Part shown: in pieces, positions 570 through 21,084 of the stretch
Layout: the number at the start of each line of letters is the position of its first letter
Position numbering within the stretch: position 1 is the stretch's first letter
Assembly (NCBI GenBank): GCA_001791745.1
Contig: MGFG01000019.1
Location: forward strand, 1 to 36,737
DNA: 36,737 bases
From: Candidatus Uhrbacteria bacterium RIFOXYC2_FULL_47_19
GTDB lineage: Bacteria > Patescibacteriota > Patescibacteriia > SG8-24
Direction: 5' to 3'
Notes under the pieces: generated by a model
Told to the model about the DNA's origin: nothing
The model's database searches: none
What the model saw: the letters and a program-made list of their open reading frames with translations, nothing else
Translations under genes and position numbers: made by a program

Positions 570-1226
570 CTACTCCCCGTCCGCATCCCCCACCATTAGT
601 TCATAACCGGTTCCTTCGATAATCAGACGAAGTAACTTAGTGGCATCGTCGCGCGCATCCTCGAACAATTGTGAATCCTGTCGGACCGACTCCTTAGCCG
701 CAGCAATCAACTGCTCGAGTGCTCGATTGTGATCCTCGTTGGGATCATTGTCGAGCACGTACCTGAGCACACCCTGTTGTGACTCGACCTCAATGTCACC
801 ATGCTGGCTAGCATTCAGAATGTCGGCCGGCGGCACGTCGACCCGCACCGTCTTAGCTTCTTGATCGACCACAATATCCTTTTCCGTCAGTTGAGACATG
901 TCGACACCTACATCAACCCGAATCACACCATCGGCCTTAACGGTCTGCCCCCAAAAAAAGTTGGACCACTTCGATCCGGTATCAACCACAATCTCCGATT
1001 TCTGATCGATATAAATTGATTTGGTGACTACGAAATATTGATCGGAAATGCGCTCCAGGATGGCCAGCGAGGTGATGGCTATCTGTTCCTCTTGAACCGG
1101 CTTAGAGAAATCCAATTTAACGACGGCGACCAGTGCGGCGGTGGCTAGCAGCACGAAGCCAAAAAGCAGTAAGGTTTTCCTGAATCCGGACATAGACGAA
1201 ATTCTATTAAGTAAATCTGTCCTCAT
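570..1226 (-). CDS. DUF4230 family membrane-anchored protein
   Basis: This protein has about 218 residues, with one hydrophobic segment near its N-terminus (FRKTLLLFGFVLLATAALVAVV) and an extracytoplasmic domain resembling DUF4230. The resemblance rests on a strand-rich part around FFWGQTVKADGVIRVDVGVD, then KTVRVDVPPADIL, then a helical C-terminus. The function of DUF4230 is unknown. I chose ATG 1226 because GGTGGAG lies 9 nt upstream; a TTG at 1253 would add nine residues. It is divergent from the mscS gene and may share the roughly 150-bp spacer for regulation. Confidence 0.65.
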   Translation of the reverse strand: MRTDLLNRISSMSGFRKTLLLFGFVLLATAALVAVVKLDFSKPVQEEQIAITSLAILERISDQYFVVTKSIYIDQKSEIVVDTGSKWSNFFWGQTVKADGVIRVDVGVDMSQLTEKDIVVDQEAKTVRVDVPPADILNASQHGDIEVESQQGVLRYVLDNDPNEDHNRALEQLIAAAKESVRQDSQLFEDARDDATKLLRLIIEGTGYELMVGDADGE

Positions 1227-1280
1227 TCTGTCTGACTCCACCCGGTCCGGCAAGTGAGAGCGGTAGAATTAAGAAGGATA

Positions 1281-1300
1281 GAAAATCAAAATCTGACCCC
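1281..1300. repeat. Copy of the 20-21 bp repeat tail (AATCAAAATCTGACCCC)
   Basis: A near match to the tail that ends the palindromic repeats at 21262-21282 and 28457-28476, and to 141-161 in the Doc/Fic gene. Here it stands alone between the divergent DUF4230 and mscS genes. Confidence 0.6.
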
Positions 1301-1316
1301 CTACCACCCTGCAATG

Positions 1317-1345
1317 TTGCCCCGCAGTCCAATCATCCGTATTAT
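1317..1345 (+). promoter_or_regulatory. Putative promoter of the mscS gene
   Basis: TTGCCC, 17-nt spacer, TATTAT. Transcription would start about 25 nt before ATG 1375. Confidence 0.45.
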
Positions 1346-1374
1346 AACCGCGTTATCATCTAATCTCTGACCAT

Positions 1375-2445
1375 ATGCTGACCATTCTAGAAAACATGCG
1401 CCTAATGGTGATCGGTCATAACACTGCCTACGATTATCTCCTAGCGGTTGGTATCTTCCTCGGAGTCATCGTCGGACTAAAATTAATTCAGACTTTAGTA
1501 CTAATTCACCTTCGACGACTGGCCAAAAAAACCAAGATTCAGGTTGATGATGCGATCATTGAGGTCTTTGAACGTATCAAGCCACCGTTCTATGTATTAT
1601 TCGCACTCTATCTGGCCACTCGTACTCTGACACTACCGCCGATTATAGAAACGGTCGTCGGGTTAGCGTTCGGTATCGTGTTGGCGGTTGAAATCGCCAT
1701 TGCCATCGGCCGACTAATCGACCGATTACTCGAAATTCGAGTGAAAGAGACCGACGGCTCCGAGAACGACAAAGCACAGCTTTCCTCTGTACTCCAAACG
1801 ATCGGCCGCATTGCCAAAGCGCTAGTCTGGATTGTGGCTGCGCTCATGCTGCTAGCCAACCTGGGCGTCAATGTCACTTCACTGGTGGCTAGTCTGGGTA
1901 TTGGCGGCATCGCCATCGCCCTCGCACTCCAAAACGTTCTCGGTGATTTGTTCAGTTCAGTCTCAATTCTGATCGACAAACCGTTCGTGGTTGGTGACCT
2001 AATCATGATTGGCGAGCATAGTGGCAAGATCGAACGTATCGGCCTCAAGAGTACACGACTCCGAACCCCACTCGGTGAGGAGTTGATCATCTCAAACCGT
2101 GAATTAACCAACGTTCGTGTCCAAAACTTTGGTCGTCTCCAGCGCCGCCGGGCCTTGTTCACGTTAGGTGTCACTTACAACACTTCATCAGAAAAACTTC
2201 GTCGGATTCCGGAGATGATGCGTAAAATTATCGCTGCTGAAACGACCGCTGAATATGATCGTTGCCATTTTGTCCGCTACAACGATTCGAGTCTGGACTT
2301 CGAAATCGCTTTCTATGCGAACACCTCTGACTACAACGAATATCTCGATCTACTCCAAAACGTGAACCTCGCTGTCTACGACGTGTTCGCTGCTGAAGGA
2401 ATAAAATTCGCCTTCCCGACCAGGACGGTCGTCATGGAGAAGTAG
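1375..2445 (+). CDS. MscS-family mechanosensitive channel
   Basis: This 356-residue membrane protein would release solutes during hypo-osmotic shock. About four or five hydrophobic helices come first. The pore-lining TM3-like helix follows, with alternating glycine and alanine (SLGIGGIAIALALQNVLGDL, about residues 174-193). Next is the beta domain (FVVGDLIMIGEHSGKIERIGLKSTRLRT) and the alpha/beta C-terminal domain. The length sits between E. coli MscS (286) and larger paralogs. It is monocistronic, with its own terminator. There is no clear binding site before ATG 1375; Met9 is an alternative start. Confidence 0.9.
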   Translation: MLTILENMRLMVIGHNTAYDYLLAVGIFLGVIVGLKLIQTLVLIHLRRLAKKTKIQVDDAIIEVFERIKPPFYVLFALYLATRTLTLPPIIETVVGLAFGIVLAVEIAIAIGRLIDRLLEIRVKETDGSENDKAQLSSVLQTIGRIAKALVWIVAALMLLANLGVNVTSLVASLGIGGIAIALALQNVLGDLFSSVSILIDKPFVVGDLIMIGEHSGKIERIGLKSTRLRTPLGEELIISNRELTNVRVQNFGRLQRRRALFTLGVTYNTSSEKLRRIPEMMRKIIAAETTAEYDRCHFVRYNDSSLDFEIAFYANTSDYNEYLDLLQNVNLAVYDVFAAEGIKFAFPTRTVVMEK

Positions 2446-7843: not shown

Positions 7844-10615
7844 TCAACTAATGCCCTCCTCCTTAAGAAACTCCAGACCAGTCTCACTACCCAATGTCCT
7901 GATTATTTTGACAATATCTTTCTTAGTATCAGCGTCGATCGAGTCCCAAGCCCGACCCATGAGCAGATTCAGGCCAACCTCGCCACCGTACTCTGCAACA
8001 ACCCGGGCAATATCATTCTTGGTGTTGGCGTCGACCGAGTCCCAGACCTCGTCAAACCTATCTATAAACAAACGAGTGCCAACCTCGCCACCGTACTCTA
8101 CGATGGCCCGGGCAATAATATTCTTGGTGTTGGCGTCGACCAAGTCCCAGACATCGTCAAACCTATCTATAAACAAACGGATGCCAACCTCGCCACCGTA
8201 CTCTACGATGGCCAGGGCAATTTTATTCTTGGTGTCGACGGCTGCCGAGTCCCAGACCTGGCCCATGAGCAGATTCAGGCCATCTTCGCCACCGTACTCT
8301 ACGATGGCCCAGGCAATAATATTCTTAGTGTCAACGTCAGCCGAGTCCCAGATCTCGTCAAACCTATCTATAAACAAACGGATGCCAACCTCGCCAATGT
8401 GCCATACGATGGCCCGGGCAATATTATTCTTGGTGTTAGCGTCGACCGAGTCCCAGACCTCGTCAAACCTATCTATAAACAAACGGGTGCCAACCTCGCC
8501 ACCGTACTCTACGATGGCCCAGGCAATAATATTCTTGGTGTTAGCGTCAGCCGAGTCCCAAACCCGACCCATGAGCAAATTCAGGTCAACCTCACCACCG
8601 TACCCTACGATGGCCCGGGCAATAATATTCTTGGTGTTAGTGTCAGCCGAGTCCCAGACATCGTCAAACCTATCTATAAACAAACGGGTGCCAACCTCGC
8701 CACTGTACTCTACGATGGCCTGAGCAATAATATTCTTGGTGTTAGCGTCAGCCGAGTCCCTGACCCGGCCCATGAGCAGATTCAGGCCAACCTCGCCACC
8801 GTACTCTACGATGGCCCGGGTGATATTACCTAGTTCCTTCCCGTATCCAATCTTCAGCAGTCCGGAATAAGCATCCCCCATCCCACCCTCCGACATCCAC
8901 GAGCGGACCGCATGGACAGCCAAACCGTAGTCAACAAACAGCGGCGAGGTGTACACCGCGTAGACAGCAGCAGCCCTCTGCTCCGGCGAGCTACCCATAA
9001 GCGACAAGGTCAAGGCCTTCCGTACTGCGTCGGCCGGTCCAAGGCTGTCGAAGTTGCCACTCCCAGGGGCCACGTCCTCCGGCACCTCGGCGGCCCGGGC
9101 GGCGAACGTCGCCAGCCAGCCCAAGCGGACCGGATCGATCCGATGCTTCCTGCCGCGCCGTTCGCGGCCGTCGTCCACCGTCAGCGTGGGTGGGGGCAGA
9201 GAACGCACTTCAGTCGTGCCGTGATCATTGGTCTGGTCCCTGCTTTTGGCGAAGACCCTTTTTCCAACCTTTGGTGGCAGCGCGTCGGCGTCCACGTGGA
9301 TGTGCAGCGAGGCCAGCCAGCCAGGACATGCGACCTCGGCGCGCCTGGCCTCCATGTGCAGCGAGGCGAGCGTCGCCAGATCGAGCGGCATGCCGCCCTT
9401 CCCGGTGCGCAGTTCGATGCATTCCTGGTCGATACTGACCTCAAGTAACGAACTACCATTCAGGACAGCCTCTACGTCGTTCCGAATTTCTTCCTTATTC
9501 CCAGAAAACGGAGCGTACTCCAACTCGAAGCCGATGTGGGGTAGACCCACGCCACTAGACTCCGGAACTGGAGGTCCGGCACGCATGACTCTGGCGACCA
9601 GAGCCGACCACTCGGCCGGAAAGTATTCGGCCAAATCGGCGACCGGCTTCGATAGCTCGGTGGACAGCCCGAGCCAGGCCTCGCCGTGCACGGCACGTAG
9701 CCGCTCCAACTCAGACGGTGCACCATGGGTACGGTCCGCGAGCAGGGATATCGACAGCGGCGACGAGAAATCCCCGGCATCGGCCATGGCGGCGGCGCAG
9801 TCGGCCTTGGCCTTACGAGGCAGCTGGTCGTACGGCAGCAGGTCGAGCGCGGCCCAAATCTCCCTCTTCAGCCCGCCGTCCGCACTGCGAGACAACTGAG
9901 CGAGGCGCAACGCCAGCTCTCCGGTGTGTGCCTTTTCCGGCTCTCTTATCCGATCCAGCAAAAACGCCAACGCACGCACCATGTCAAGTCTGGACTTGTC
10001 AGGCATGAGACTCCAGGCCTCGGGCAACAACAGTAAGGACAGTCGACCGTACTCCAGCTCCGCTCCTTTTTTTCTGAGATCAATCCGTTCCGAGAGATCT
10101 TCAATAGTCAACTCGCCGGACAAAAAACGCCGGAAGGTAGAGCGGACCTCACCCCGCCCATCGAAACCGGACGCCTCCAGCACTGCATCGACGTACGGCC
10201 TAAGCTGAGACTGCCCGACCAGCAGGTTGATCTTCATCGCCTCGTGCGCCTTCAGGGCCGCGGCGACGATCTTCGGCGGCAGGTCTGCGTACGATGTATC
10301 TTCCATCTCGTCCGACATTAATTCAGTCTCTGTTCGTTCTTGTCTTGGTAAATCCGTCTCTTTGAACAAAGATACGCCTTCATCTTCTGACACCGGCATC
10401 AACAGCCCAGAAGGACCGATCTCGAACTCCTTGCTGGAGGCCAGATCGACCCTCTTGGGCCGTACTACTTTCATGCCGTTGTTGACGGGCGGCGGCAAGC
10501 GCAGCTCCGGCGGTACACAGCAATCGTCGGGTGATGCGATCAACTCGGGAATGTCCGTATTGAACGGCCTGCCGGTCCGTGGGTCAATAATACGTCCGGA
10601 CTCTTGATTCTTCAT
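7844..10615 (-). CDS. Large protein with amidoligase-like core and tandem HEAT-like repeats
   Basis: A 923-residue cytoplasmic protein that I cannot assign to a named gene. Residues 1-110 are low-complexity, and 110-350 are helical. Residues 358-480 resemble the putative amidoligase fold (glutamine-synthetase-like COOH-NH2 ligases): GFELEY (362-367), an acidic strand ending IELR (400-403), HIHVD (438-442) and TTEVR. This match is by motif only. Residues 610-912 are nine helical repeats of two kinds, A (32 residues, GLNLLMGRVWDSAD...) and B (35 residues, GTRLFIDRFDEVWDS...), in the order A B A B B A B B A. They are nearly identical at the DNA level, implying recent expansion. The repeats look HEAT-like and may bind a partner. 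The N-terminal two thirds is visibly richer in G+C than its surroundings. An IS remnant lies 80 bp upstream but spares the promoter. Confidence 0.7.
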   Translation of the reverse strand: MKNQESGRIIDPRTGRPFNTDIPELIASPDDCCVPPELRLPPPVNNGMKVVRPKRVDLASSKEFEIGPSGLLMPVSEDEGVSLFKETDLPRQERTETELMSDEMEDTSYADLPPKIVAAALKAHEAMKINLLVGQSQLRPYVDAVLEASGFDGRGEVRSTFRRFLSGELTIEDLSERIDLRKKGAELEYGRLSLLLLPEAWSLMPDKSRLDMVRALAFLLDRIREPEKAHTGELALRLAQLSRSADGGLKREIWAALDLLPYDQLPRKAKADCAAAMADAGDFSSPLSISLLADRTHGAPSELERLRAVHGEAWLGLSTELSKPVADLAEYFPAEWSALVARVMRAGPPVPESSGVGLPHIGFELEYAPFSGNKEEIRNDVEAVLNGSSLLEVSIDQECIELRTGKGGMPLDLATLASLHMEARRAEVACPGWLASLHIHVDADALPPKVGKRVFAKSRDQTNDHGTTEVRSLPPPTLTVDDGRERRGRKHRIDPVRLGWLATFAARAAEVPEDVAPGSGNFDSLGPADAVRKALTLSLMGSSPEQRAAAVYAVYTSPLFVDYGLAVHAVRSWMSEGGMGDAYSGLLKIGYGKELGNITRAIVEYGGEVGLNLLMGRVRDSADANTKNIIAQAIVEYSGEVGTRLFIDRFDDVWDSADTNTKNIIARAIVGYGGEVDLNLLMGRVWDSADANTKNIIAWAIVEYGGEVGTRLFIDRFDEVWDSVDANTKNNIARAIVWHIGEVGIRLFIDRFDEIWDSADVDTKNIIAWAIVEYGGEDGLNLLMGQVWDSAAVDTKNKIALAIVEYGGEVGIRLFIDRFDDVWDLVDANTKNIIARAIVEYGGEVGTRLFIDRFDEVWDSVDANTKNDIARVVAEYGGEVGLNLLMGRAWDSIDADTKKDIVKIIRTLGSETGLEFLKEEGIS
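7880..8788 (-). repeat. Coding tandem repeat array (96- and 105-bp units)
   Basis: Nine in-frame units encode residues 610-912 of the large protein. Unit boundaries are easy to see by the recurrent GAGCAGATTCAGGCC (A units) and AAACCTATCTATAAACAA (B units) on the plus strand. Length differences are multiples of three, so copy number can change without frameshift. Confidence 0.9.
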
Positions 10616-19175: not shown

Positions 19176-19330
19176 ACAAAAAACACCTCAGAGGTTCGCG
19201 CTCAAGAAGTTAGTTCATAGGAGACTTCGAGCCGGAGCCCGAAAATCCCTATAAACACACTCCATGCTTGTCGTGAGCGCGAAACACCAAGGTGTTTCAT
19301 CGCCAAACGCAATAGACCGGTGTTGCACTG
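19176..19330 (-). ncRNA. Candidate rod-like small RNA (6S-like shape)
   Basis: Minus-strand promoter TTGACA-17-TAGATT (complement 19338-19366) points at this stretch. The expected RNA of about 155 nt folds into one long rod. The outer stem is AACACCT/AGGTGTT (19290-19296 with 19182-19188). A perfect 10-bp stem TTCGCGCTCA/TGAGCGCGAA follows (19274-19283 with 19195-19204). Then comes a 10-nt bulge, two more stems and an apical hairpin closed by a UCCG tetraloop of the stable UNCG class. T6 follows the outer stem, acting as terminator. The overall shape, a long hairpin with a large one-sided bulge, recalls 6S RNA, but no diagnostic sequence was recognised. Confidence 0.5.
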
Positions 19331-19542: not shown

Positions 19543-19571
19543 TTGACAAGTTAAGATTAATATGCTATAAA
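19543..19571 (+). promoter_or_regulatory. Strong promoter of the tRNA-like RNA
   Basis: TTGACA, 17-nt spacer, TATAAA: a near-consensus sigma70-type promoter whose start point falls within about 2 nt of the tRNA-like acceptor stem. Confidence 0.75.
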
Positions 19572-19578
19572 GACTCAT

Positions 19579-19853
19579 CAACGTTGTCATGCCAACTGGT
19601 GCACATGCGTCCAGAGATGGATGCGCGGGAGTAACATCTCGATGCGGCATGAGTTCCGGCGCGCAAGCGTGGGCATAGACCCCGTAAGCGGAAAGGGGGT
19701 TCGAATCCTCCCAACGTTGCTAAATTCCAGCTGTGAAGTCGAAACTCCGGAGAGCCCCTTCTGGGACCGAGAGGATCGTCCGCAGCTGGTCGGATAAGCT
19801 GTCAATGACGGCAGCCTATCTAAGGCCCCACCTTTCTTAAGGTAGGGCTTTTT
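19579..19853 (+). ncRNA. Structured RNA with an expanded tRNA-like domain
   Basis: A perfect acceptor-like stem AACGTTG/CAACGTT (19580-19586 with 19712-19718) encloses four elements. A 3-bp D-like arm has an 8-nt loop holding GG (19590-19603). A 5-bp stem at the anticodon-arm position (19604-19608 with 19647-19651) has a 38-nt loop containing its own 6-bp hairpin (19614-19619 with 19635-19640). A branched variable arm (19654-19693) has a GCAA tetraloop. A textbook T arm has 7-nt loop TTCGAAT (19700-19706). No CCA is encoded. The transcript continues through a stem CCAGCTG/CAGCTGG (19727-19733 with 19783-19789) and a hairpin at 19798-19815 to a terminator. It lacks the D-loop and tag expected of tmRNA and the core of RNase P RNA. 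It could be an intron-bearing tRNA, a novel RNA, or a leader of clpP. Confidence 0.6.
19825..19853 (+). terminator. Intrinsic terminator of the tRNA-like RNA
   Basis: GCCCCACCTT/AAGGTAGGGC stem with one mismatch, then T5. It lies 100 bp before clpP. Confidence 0.8.
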
Positions 19854-20645: not shown

Positions 20646-20788
20646 TGTCGTCCCAGAACTGCGAACTGAACATTATTCCTTTTGTCGTCCCAGAACTGCG
20701 AGTGTAGCGAGCAGTATCCGGGACCCAGGAGTAAAATCGATCGGCTTCTGGATCCCGGATAATTGCTAACGCAATTTCCGGGATGACA
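20646..20788. repeat. Palindromic repeat copy, cluster B unit 1
   Basis: Begins with a short head copy (TGTCGTCCCAGAACTGCGAA) at 20646, then a complete unit from 20684. The unit has TATCCGGGACCCAGGAG, TTCTGGATCCCGGATAA, an ATTGCTAACGCAAT mini-palindrome and TTTCCGGGATGACA. Confidence 0.85.
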
Positions 20789-20830
20789 GCTGGAAAGACT
20801 CGCAATTTTCGGGATGACAATTTAAAACAC

Positions 20831-20944
20831 TGTCGTCCCGGAACTGCGAGCGAGTGTAGCGAGCAGTATCCGGGACCCAGGAGTAAAGAGATTGGGATTA
20901 GTTTCTGGATCCCGGATAATTGCTAACGCAATTTCCGGGATGAC
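20831..20944. repeat. Palindromic repeat copy, cluster B unit 2
   Basis: A full unit from TGTCGTCCCGGAACTGCGAG to CCGGGATGACA, with a longer GCGAGCGAGTGTAGCGAGC head arm and the ATTGCTAACGCAAT insert. GGATGACA-type satellites follow to 21053. Confidence 0.85.
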
Positions 20945-21084
20945 AGCTGGAAAGACTCGCAATTTCCGGGATGACAAAATAAAAAGTAAGGATGACAAAT
21001 TAAGAAAGGTTGCGGTTTCAAGATGACATATTAAAAAGTAGGGATGACAAATACATAAGAAGAATTGAGATAACAAAAGAATAT

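Follow-up and report, generated by a model that had tools for sequence, protein, structure and literature searches.

What kind of RNA is encoded immediately upstream of clpP in Candidatus Uhrbacteria bacterium RIFOXYC2_FULL_47_19, and how is its resemblance to tRNA to be understood? The DNA analysed (hereafter the window) is a 36,737 nt stretch of contig MGFG01000019.1, in which the original prediction placed an expanded tRNA-like RNA that could be an intron-bearing tRNA, a degenerate tmRNA-type RNA or a new class. The ncRNA locus described there is confirmed as real: an RNA of about 275 nt is encoded at nt 19579–19853, and its features, all on the plus strand, are given below.

Promoter and transcript

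The promoter, TTGACA-N17-TATAAA (nt 19543–19571; a match of 11/12), consists of a -35 hexamer at nt 19543–19548 and, after a 17 nt spacer, a -10 hexamer at nt 19566–19571 that is extended by a preceding TGC. The transcription start predicted from its position, about nt 19578–19579, abuts the acceptor-like strand at nt 19580–19586, and the predicted transcript is leaderless relative to the acceptor-like stem; this agrees with the claim that transcription starts at a 7-bp acceptor-like stem. Folding of the full transcript is more stable than that of shuffled sequences (z -4.7), which is mainly owed to its 3' domain, as the tRNA-like part folded alone gives a z of -2.0. When the window was scanned for a T arm leading into a 7-bp acceptor, there was a single match, exactly at the locus, while 17 of 200 dinucleotide-shuffled windows contained any match.

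Relatives in the same class

A second species of the same genus (G001) carries the RNA at the same place with 81% identity, and promoter, structure and terminator are all kept; within the promoter, the hexamers are retained and most of the spacer has drifted. With a covariance model built from these two sequences (R1), a diverged copy was detected in G007, which belongs to another genus; this copy has a leaderless promoter and a terminator but no CCA. A core model of the three sequences (R2) then found G048 and G237, from other families of the same class, at 43.4 and 48.9 bits compared with 36.1 for the highest-scoring tRNA. A five-sequence core model (R3), run on 41 genomes of the family of G237 (f24), added G375, G299, G381 and G128 at 42.6–52.9 bits, the top tRNA scoring 35.8. 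Altogether there are eight further loci in three families of the same class, all scoring above a tRNA background whose maximum is about 36 bits for both core models, and ARAGORN calls no tRNA at any of the eight. Independently of any model, plain blastn aligns several members of f24 and f39 with one another across the tRNA-like part. The promoter lies directly beside the domain in G007 and G048 as well, the distance from the end of the -10 hexamer being 4–7 nt across these two and the window genus (4 nt in G007 and G048).

Other candidates were rejected. Besides G001, blastn against 381 genomes of the class gave short matches only, of which many fell on the tRNA-like T arm, and two further matches obtained with G007 as query (L223 and L220) proved by inspection to be coding. 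The matches of R1 in the class that have a locus were all tRNA-Ser or tRNA-Leu. L273 was dropped because it resembles ksgA coding sequence, and L258 because it is a tRNA-Asp with a duplicated 3' fragment; L259 and L260 were likewise checked and dropped. L237, in G006, encodes CCA and is not called by ARAGORN, but at 22.6 bits (R2) and 31.7 bits (R3) it falls inside the tRNA score range and was excluded. Searches of phages, plasmids and viral contigs for the RNA recovered no member, 24 stretches giving no core-model match. No second similar copy occurs in the genome of the window, the genomes searched being assemblies, most of them fragmented. The RNA itself is undescribed in the open-access literature searched.

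Structure and covariation of the tRNA-like domain

The tRNA-like domain is contiguous and about 140 nt long. Its acceptor-like stem P1 is formed by AACGTTG (nt 19580–19586) and CAACGTT (nt 19712–19718), with compensatory changes in six of seven pairs among the nine sequences, and is followed by G19719 and CTAAA where CCA would be expected. Directly adjoining it is a D-like stem, P2, between TCATGC (nt 19587–19592) and GCATGA (nt 19647–19652), with compensatory changes in four of six pairs, one of them (U-A to C-G) already present between the two species of the window genus. It is these strands that relatives keep, instead of the proposed 5-bp anticodon stem and its 38-nt loop, and that helix is abandoned. 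The D-like loop contains a GG at nt 19598–19599, equivalent to G18G19 of tRNA and present in the D-like loop of every one of the nine sequences in alignment A11, and it is enlarged by two extra hairpins. The first, P3 (nt 19606–19625), has a GAGA tetraloop, is conserved in sequence and folds in both species of the window genus, to which it is limited; the second, P4 (nt 19626–19641), has a GCGA tetraloop in its G001 version.

Comparison with relatives places a hairpin at the anticodon position (nt 19653–19676), capped in the window genus by GCAA or GCGA and without an anticodon loop. The variable arm is a separate hairpin, CCG-TAAG-CGG (nt 19682–19691), the pairing of which is kept in most members (the hairpin of G048 is longer). 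The predicted T arm was found as described, GGGGG-TTCGAAT-CCTCC at nt 19695–19711, and in the nine sequences all of its cells are paired and three of its five pairs have compensatory changes.

Features common to the members are the 7-bp acceptor, the abutting D-like stem, the GG loop, a hairpin at the anticodon position, a long variable arm and a T loop of the form TTCRANT. Four relatives (G048, G299, G381 and G128) carry UANCCAY in the anticodon-position loop, that is, seven nucleotides with NCC at positions 34–36 and A at position 33, and a normal anticodon loop with U33 is absent from all nine. Position 3-70 is C-G in every sequence. The discriminator (G or A) and the first pair (A-U, G-C or C-G) vary among members, which argues against one constant synthetase, and CCA is encoded in three of the nine (G237, G299 and G381).

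Compensatory changes among relatives, which the original prediction had named in advance as a check on the proposed stems, occur in every core helix. In the nine-sequence core cloverleaf 92% of cells are paired and 21 of 28 pairs have changes on both sides, figures that are tilted in favour of the structure, since the core alignments were fitted to it by hand (A8, A10) or by model (A11), and that come from few sequences. None of 500 shuffles reached the observed values, and sliding the partner strand by one to three columns reduced pairing to 38–51%; the acceptor and T stems are also recognisable by eye in the sequences. Judged by this pattern of substitution, the tRNA-like cloverleaf (acceptor, D-like arm with GG, T arm) is shown to be under selection. 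The combination of an acceptor with an abutting D-like stem, a GG loop, a T arm, no decoding anticodon and covariation indicates that the nine sequences are a real RNA family and not a broken tRNA.

Comparison with tRNA, tmRNA and RNase P RNA

At the locus, Rfam searches at the gathering cut-off and at E≤10 gave nothing beyond chance matches, and ARAGORN made no call. This agrees with the original view that the RNA is neither an ordinary tRNA, tmRNA nor RNase P RNA and, together with the compensatory changes across relatives, supports the option of a new class. The tRNA model RF00005 at E≤1 finds 40 good tRNAs in the same genome, and the locus is not among them; those tRNAs that were inspected have an encoded CCA, where the RNA has G-CTAAA. 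Within this set tRNA-Cys, tRNA-Ser(GCT), tRNA-Ser(TGA) and tRNA-Ile(GAT) were not seen, probably because of assembly gaps. RNase P RNA (RF00010) has no match at the locus and its gene is on contig C9 (184 bits).

The tmRNA family (RF00023) and related families do not match the locus even at E≤10. Like tmRNA, the RNA combines an acceptor, a T arm and a D-like loop, without a decoding anticodon, in a larger molecule. The ends of tmRNA, however, come together in the acceptor and enclose a long insert, whereas here the module is contiguous, it lacks CCA, and no tag-like reading frame was identified in the tRNA-like domain by inspection. Alanine charging of tmRNA needs G-U at position 3-70; with C-G there in all nine sequences, the alanine identity of tmRNA is absent. 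As a normal tmRNA is also encoded elsewhere in the genome (contig C10, 123.5 bits), a degenerate tmRNA-type RNA is not supported. An intron-bearing tRNA fares no better: a decoding anticodon loop is missing from every homolog, and several are too small there to hold an intron.

Accessory domains and terminator

The further helices and terminator expected 3' of the tRNA-like domain are present. The 3' domain (z -5.95; 80% identity in G001) contains a long hairpin, P6 (CCAGCTG...CAGCTGG, nt 19727–19789), and a second hairpin, P7 (nt 19792–19821), in which comparison with G001 reveals four compensatory pair changes (AU-GC, UA-GC, GC-AU and GC-AU) around an invariant AATGAC loop. An intrinsic terminator follows at nt 19822–19853, with a two-part stem that folds in both species and then a T run. 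At possible small ORFs in the window genus (11 codons, ending in the terminator) the changes between the species follow base pairing and not codons.

Two ARRANGEMENTS of the RNA were found, with the tRNA-like domain either 5' or 3' of a structured accessory domain. The RNAs of the window genus, G007 and G048 begin with the tRNA-like domain, beside the promoter, and continue into a strongly folded domain (z -6.1 in both G007 and G048). In family f24 the folded part seems to be upstream of the tRNA-like domain (z -3.9 in G237 and -7.0 in G299, with weaker values for the remaining members), and a promoter of the leaderless kind was not seen next to that domain. The downstream part in f24 has no more structure than shuffled sequences and may be an ordinary small ORF; Pfam and PHROGs gave no match for the small ORFs 3' of four members. 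The Shine-Dalgarno-like GGAGGAGAG is shared by four of the five f24 members, 168–208 nt upstream of the tRNA-like domain. The accessory domains are not homologous between families. Because their place and sequence differ between lineages, the tRNA-like domain looks like a module with exchangeable partners.

Proposed function

The explanation we favour, with moderate confidence, is that the locus encodes a stand-alone structured ncRNA belonging to a new family, in which a tRNA mimic that does not decode is fused to an additional structured domain and docks through its elbow. The D and T loops would form a tRNA elbow, and the D-T elbow is recognised by RNase P, the ribosome, T-boxes and many proteins (PMC4810234). 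The docking partner of this L-shaped module would be some machine that binds tRNA; the ribosome or an RNase is most likely, the latter being either RNase P or, as for YrlA, PNPase. The accessory domain would act as the effector that gives a specific output. With the start predicted at the 5' base of the acceptor, the RNA of the window genus would need no maturation by RNase P, and its 5' end would be sealed in a helix. A single function for all families is an assumption, because the accessory domains are not homologous between them, and some of the members that encode CCA may behave more like tRNAs.

The best functional parallel is YrlA, a bacterial Y RNA of modular build whose tRNA-like domain binds PNPase (reviewed in PMC8394870). 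Both are non-decoding RNAs that resemble the D, T and acceptor arms of tRNA, but the 5' and 3' ends of YrlA pair into a long Rsr-binding stem, while here the module ends pair as an acceptor, the accessory domain hangs outside, and there is no Rfam match. A Y stem closing both ends of the RNA was not found, the 5' end being paired inside the tRNA-like domain. The large bacterial RNAs GOLLD and ROOL have tRNAs nearby or, in GOLLD, sometimes in a linker (PMC12286853). Those are phage tRNAs in a phage setting, whereas the present RNA is smaller, has no Rfam match and was not recovered in the viral, phage and plasmid searches.

To our knowledge, few cases of tRNA mimicry in cellular bacterial RNAs have been described (tmRNA, YrlA), and few ncRNAs have been characterised in Patescibacteria. 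A further independent mimic design, without an anticodon, usually without CCA and with interchangeable domains, would be a natural test of recruitment by the elbow alone. Standard annotation (ARAGORN, Rfam) misses the family entirely, and covariance model R3 makes a census directly possible.

The main rival to elbow docking is a purely structural 5' cap, in which the tRNA-like fold has no docking partner and shields the downstream RNA from 5'-end-dependent decay, being leaderless in the window genus and generated by RNase P where a leader exists. The coincidence of the predicted start with the acceptor stem in three lineages agrees with this, as do 3' domains that differ between genera, which is expected if only stability is selected. 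It is nevertheless unlikely, since in f24 the structured domain is upstream of the tRNA-like part, the sequence downstream being no more structured than shuffles, and since the GG and the T loop are more conserved than a simple stem would require. A more specific form of docking seems about equally improbable, namely a new RNA class of Patescibacteria whose conserved non-decoding tRNA mimic is joined, on either side, to lineage-specific domains and has the ribosome itself as its docking partner; the Shine-Dalgarno-like motif in f24 suggests that such an RNA could hold or control ribosomes in reduced cells.

An unusual working tRNA has a small probability. It could be an allo-tRNA, an intron-bearing tRNA or, given the UANCCAY loop of four relatives, a Gly-like tRNA, and the cloverleaf with its T arm and long variable arm, the CCA of three members and the seven-nucleotide loops with NCC at 34–36 are all consistent with this. 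Class II tRNAs (Ser/Leu), which share the cloverleaf, long variable arm and T arm, are also the nearest background of the covariance models. However, position 33 of the seven-nucleotide loops is A and not U, the window genus has a GNRA-capped hairpin at the anticodon position, and the D-like stem abuts the acceptor, the two-nucleotide acceptor/D linker of tRNA being missing. Nor is there a constant charging identity in discriminator or first pair. Six of the nine members lack CCA and extra structured domains are present, in contrast to class II tRNAs and allo-tRNAs; the acceptor/T combination is 7/5, compared with 8/4 or 9/3 in allo-tRNAs (PMC7609411).

The clpP neighbourhood

In three genomes the RNA precedes clpP on the same strand. 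In two, both species of the window genus, it adjoins the gene, and in G007 it is about 2.3 kb upstream with another gene between. In the other seven genera of the family the region directly upstream of clpP lacks it, and the G048 copy is near rnpA-yidD. The adjacency to clpP thus holds for the window genus but not as a general property, and since the neighbourhood is lineage-specific, the link to trans-translation that it had hinted at is not supported.

These distributions bear equally on whether the RNA is a cis-acting leader or attenuator of clpP, which is very doubtful. Its position upstream of the gene on the same strand, with a terminator in between, would suit such a role, but terminator and clpP are separated by about 100 nt that are 74% identical in G001 and contain a promoter-like stretch; the intervening gene in G007, the seven genera without the RNA at clpP and the location in G048 also argue against it.

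Least credible is the chance survival of a tRNA pseudogene or integration-site remnant, as, despite a tRNA-derived look and a covariance-model background made up mostly of class II tRNAs, there are compensatory changes in every core helix and covariation in P7, the promoter hexamers and terminator are conserved, and the genome holds no similar copy.

A second unannotated structured element is present on the minus strand at nt 19185–19300 of the window, with a terminator-like end on that strand. It shows 94% identity in G001 and 73–83% in six other genera of the family, contains an invariant TCGCGCTCACGACAAGCATGG...TTGAGCGCGA, and has no Rfam match. Wherever found it is within a few kb of clpP, i.e. 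it is a family-wide neighbour of clpP, unlike the tRNA-like RNA.

Other observations

The excluded candidate L237 (also L289; G006:C7:10759-10852, minus strand) is a tRNA-like gene without a recognisable anticodon arm. It has its own promoter-like site and a terminator-like hairpin, scores 26 bits with the tmRNA model, and is possibly a further relative or a separate oddity. In G048, the roughly 550 nt downstream of the tRNA-like domain (L292, nt 950–1499, minus strand; z -6.1, terminator-like hairpin included) resembles a large, unannotated ncRNA situated immediately downstream of rnpA-yidD.

Partial duplicated 3' halves of tRNAs, from T arm to CCA, occur at L258 (G001:C7) and L204 (G000:C3:3237-3285), where they adjoin tRNA-Asp and tRNA-Gln genes; recombination or integration might leave such copies. 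Elsewhere in the window, a tandem array with periods of about 96–306 occupies nt 7940–8828, within a 923-aa minus-strand ORF (nt 7844–10615), and repeats are found downstream of clpP at nt 20647–20984 (GTCGTCCCAGAACTGCG; a 157-nt unit in 1.9 copies).
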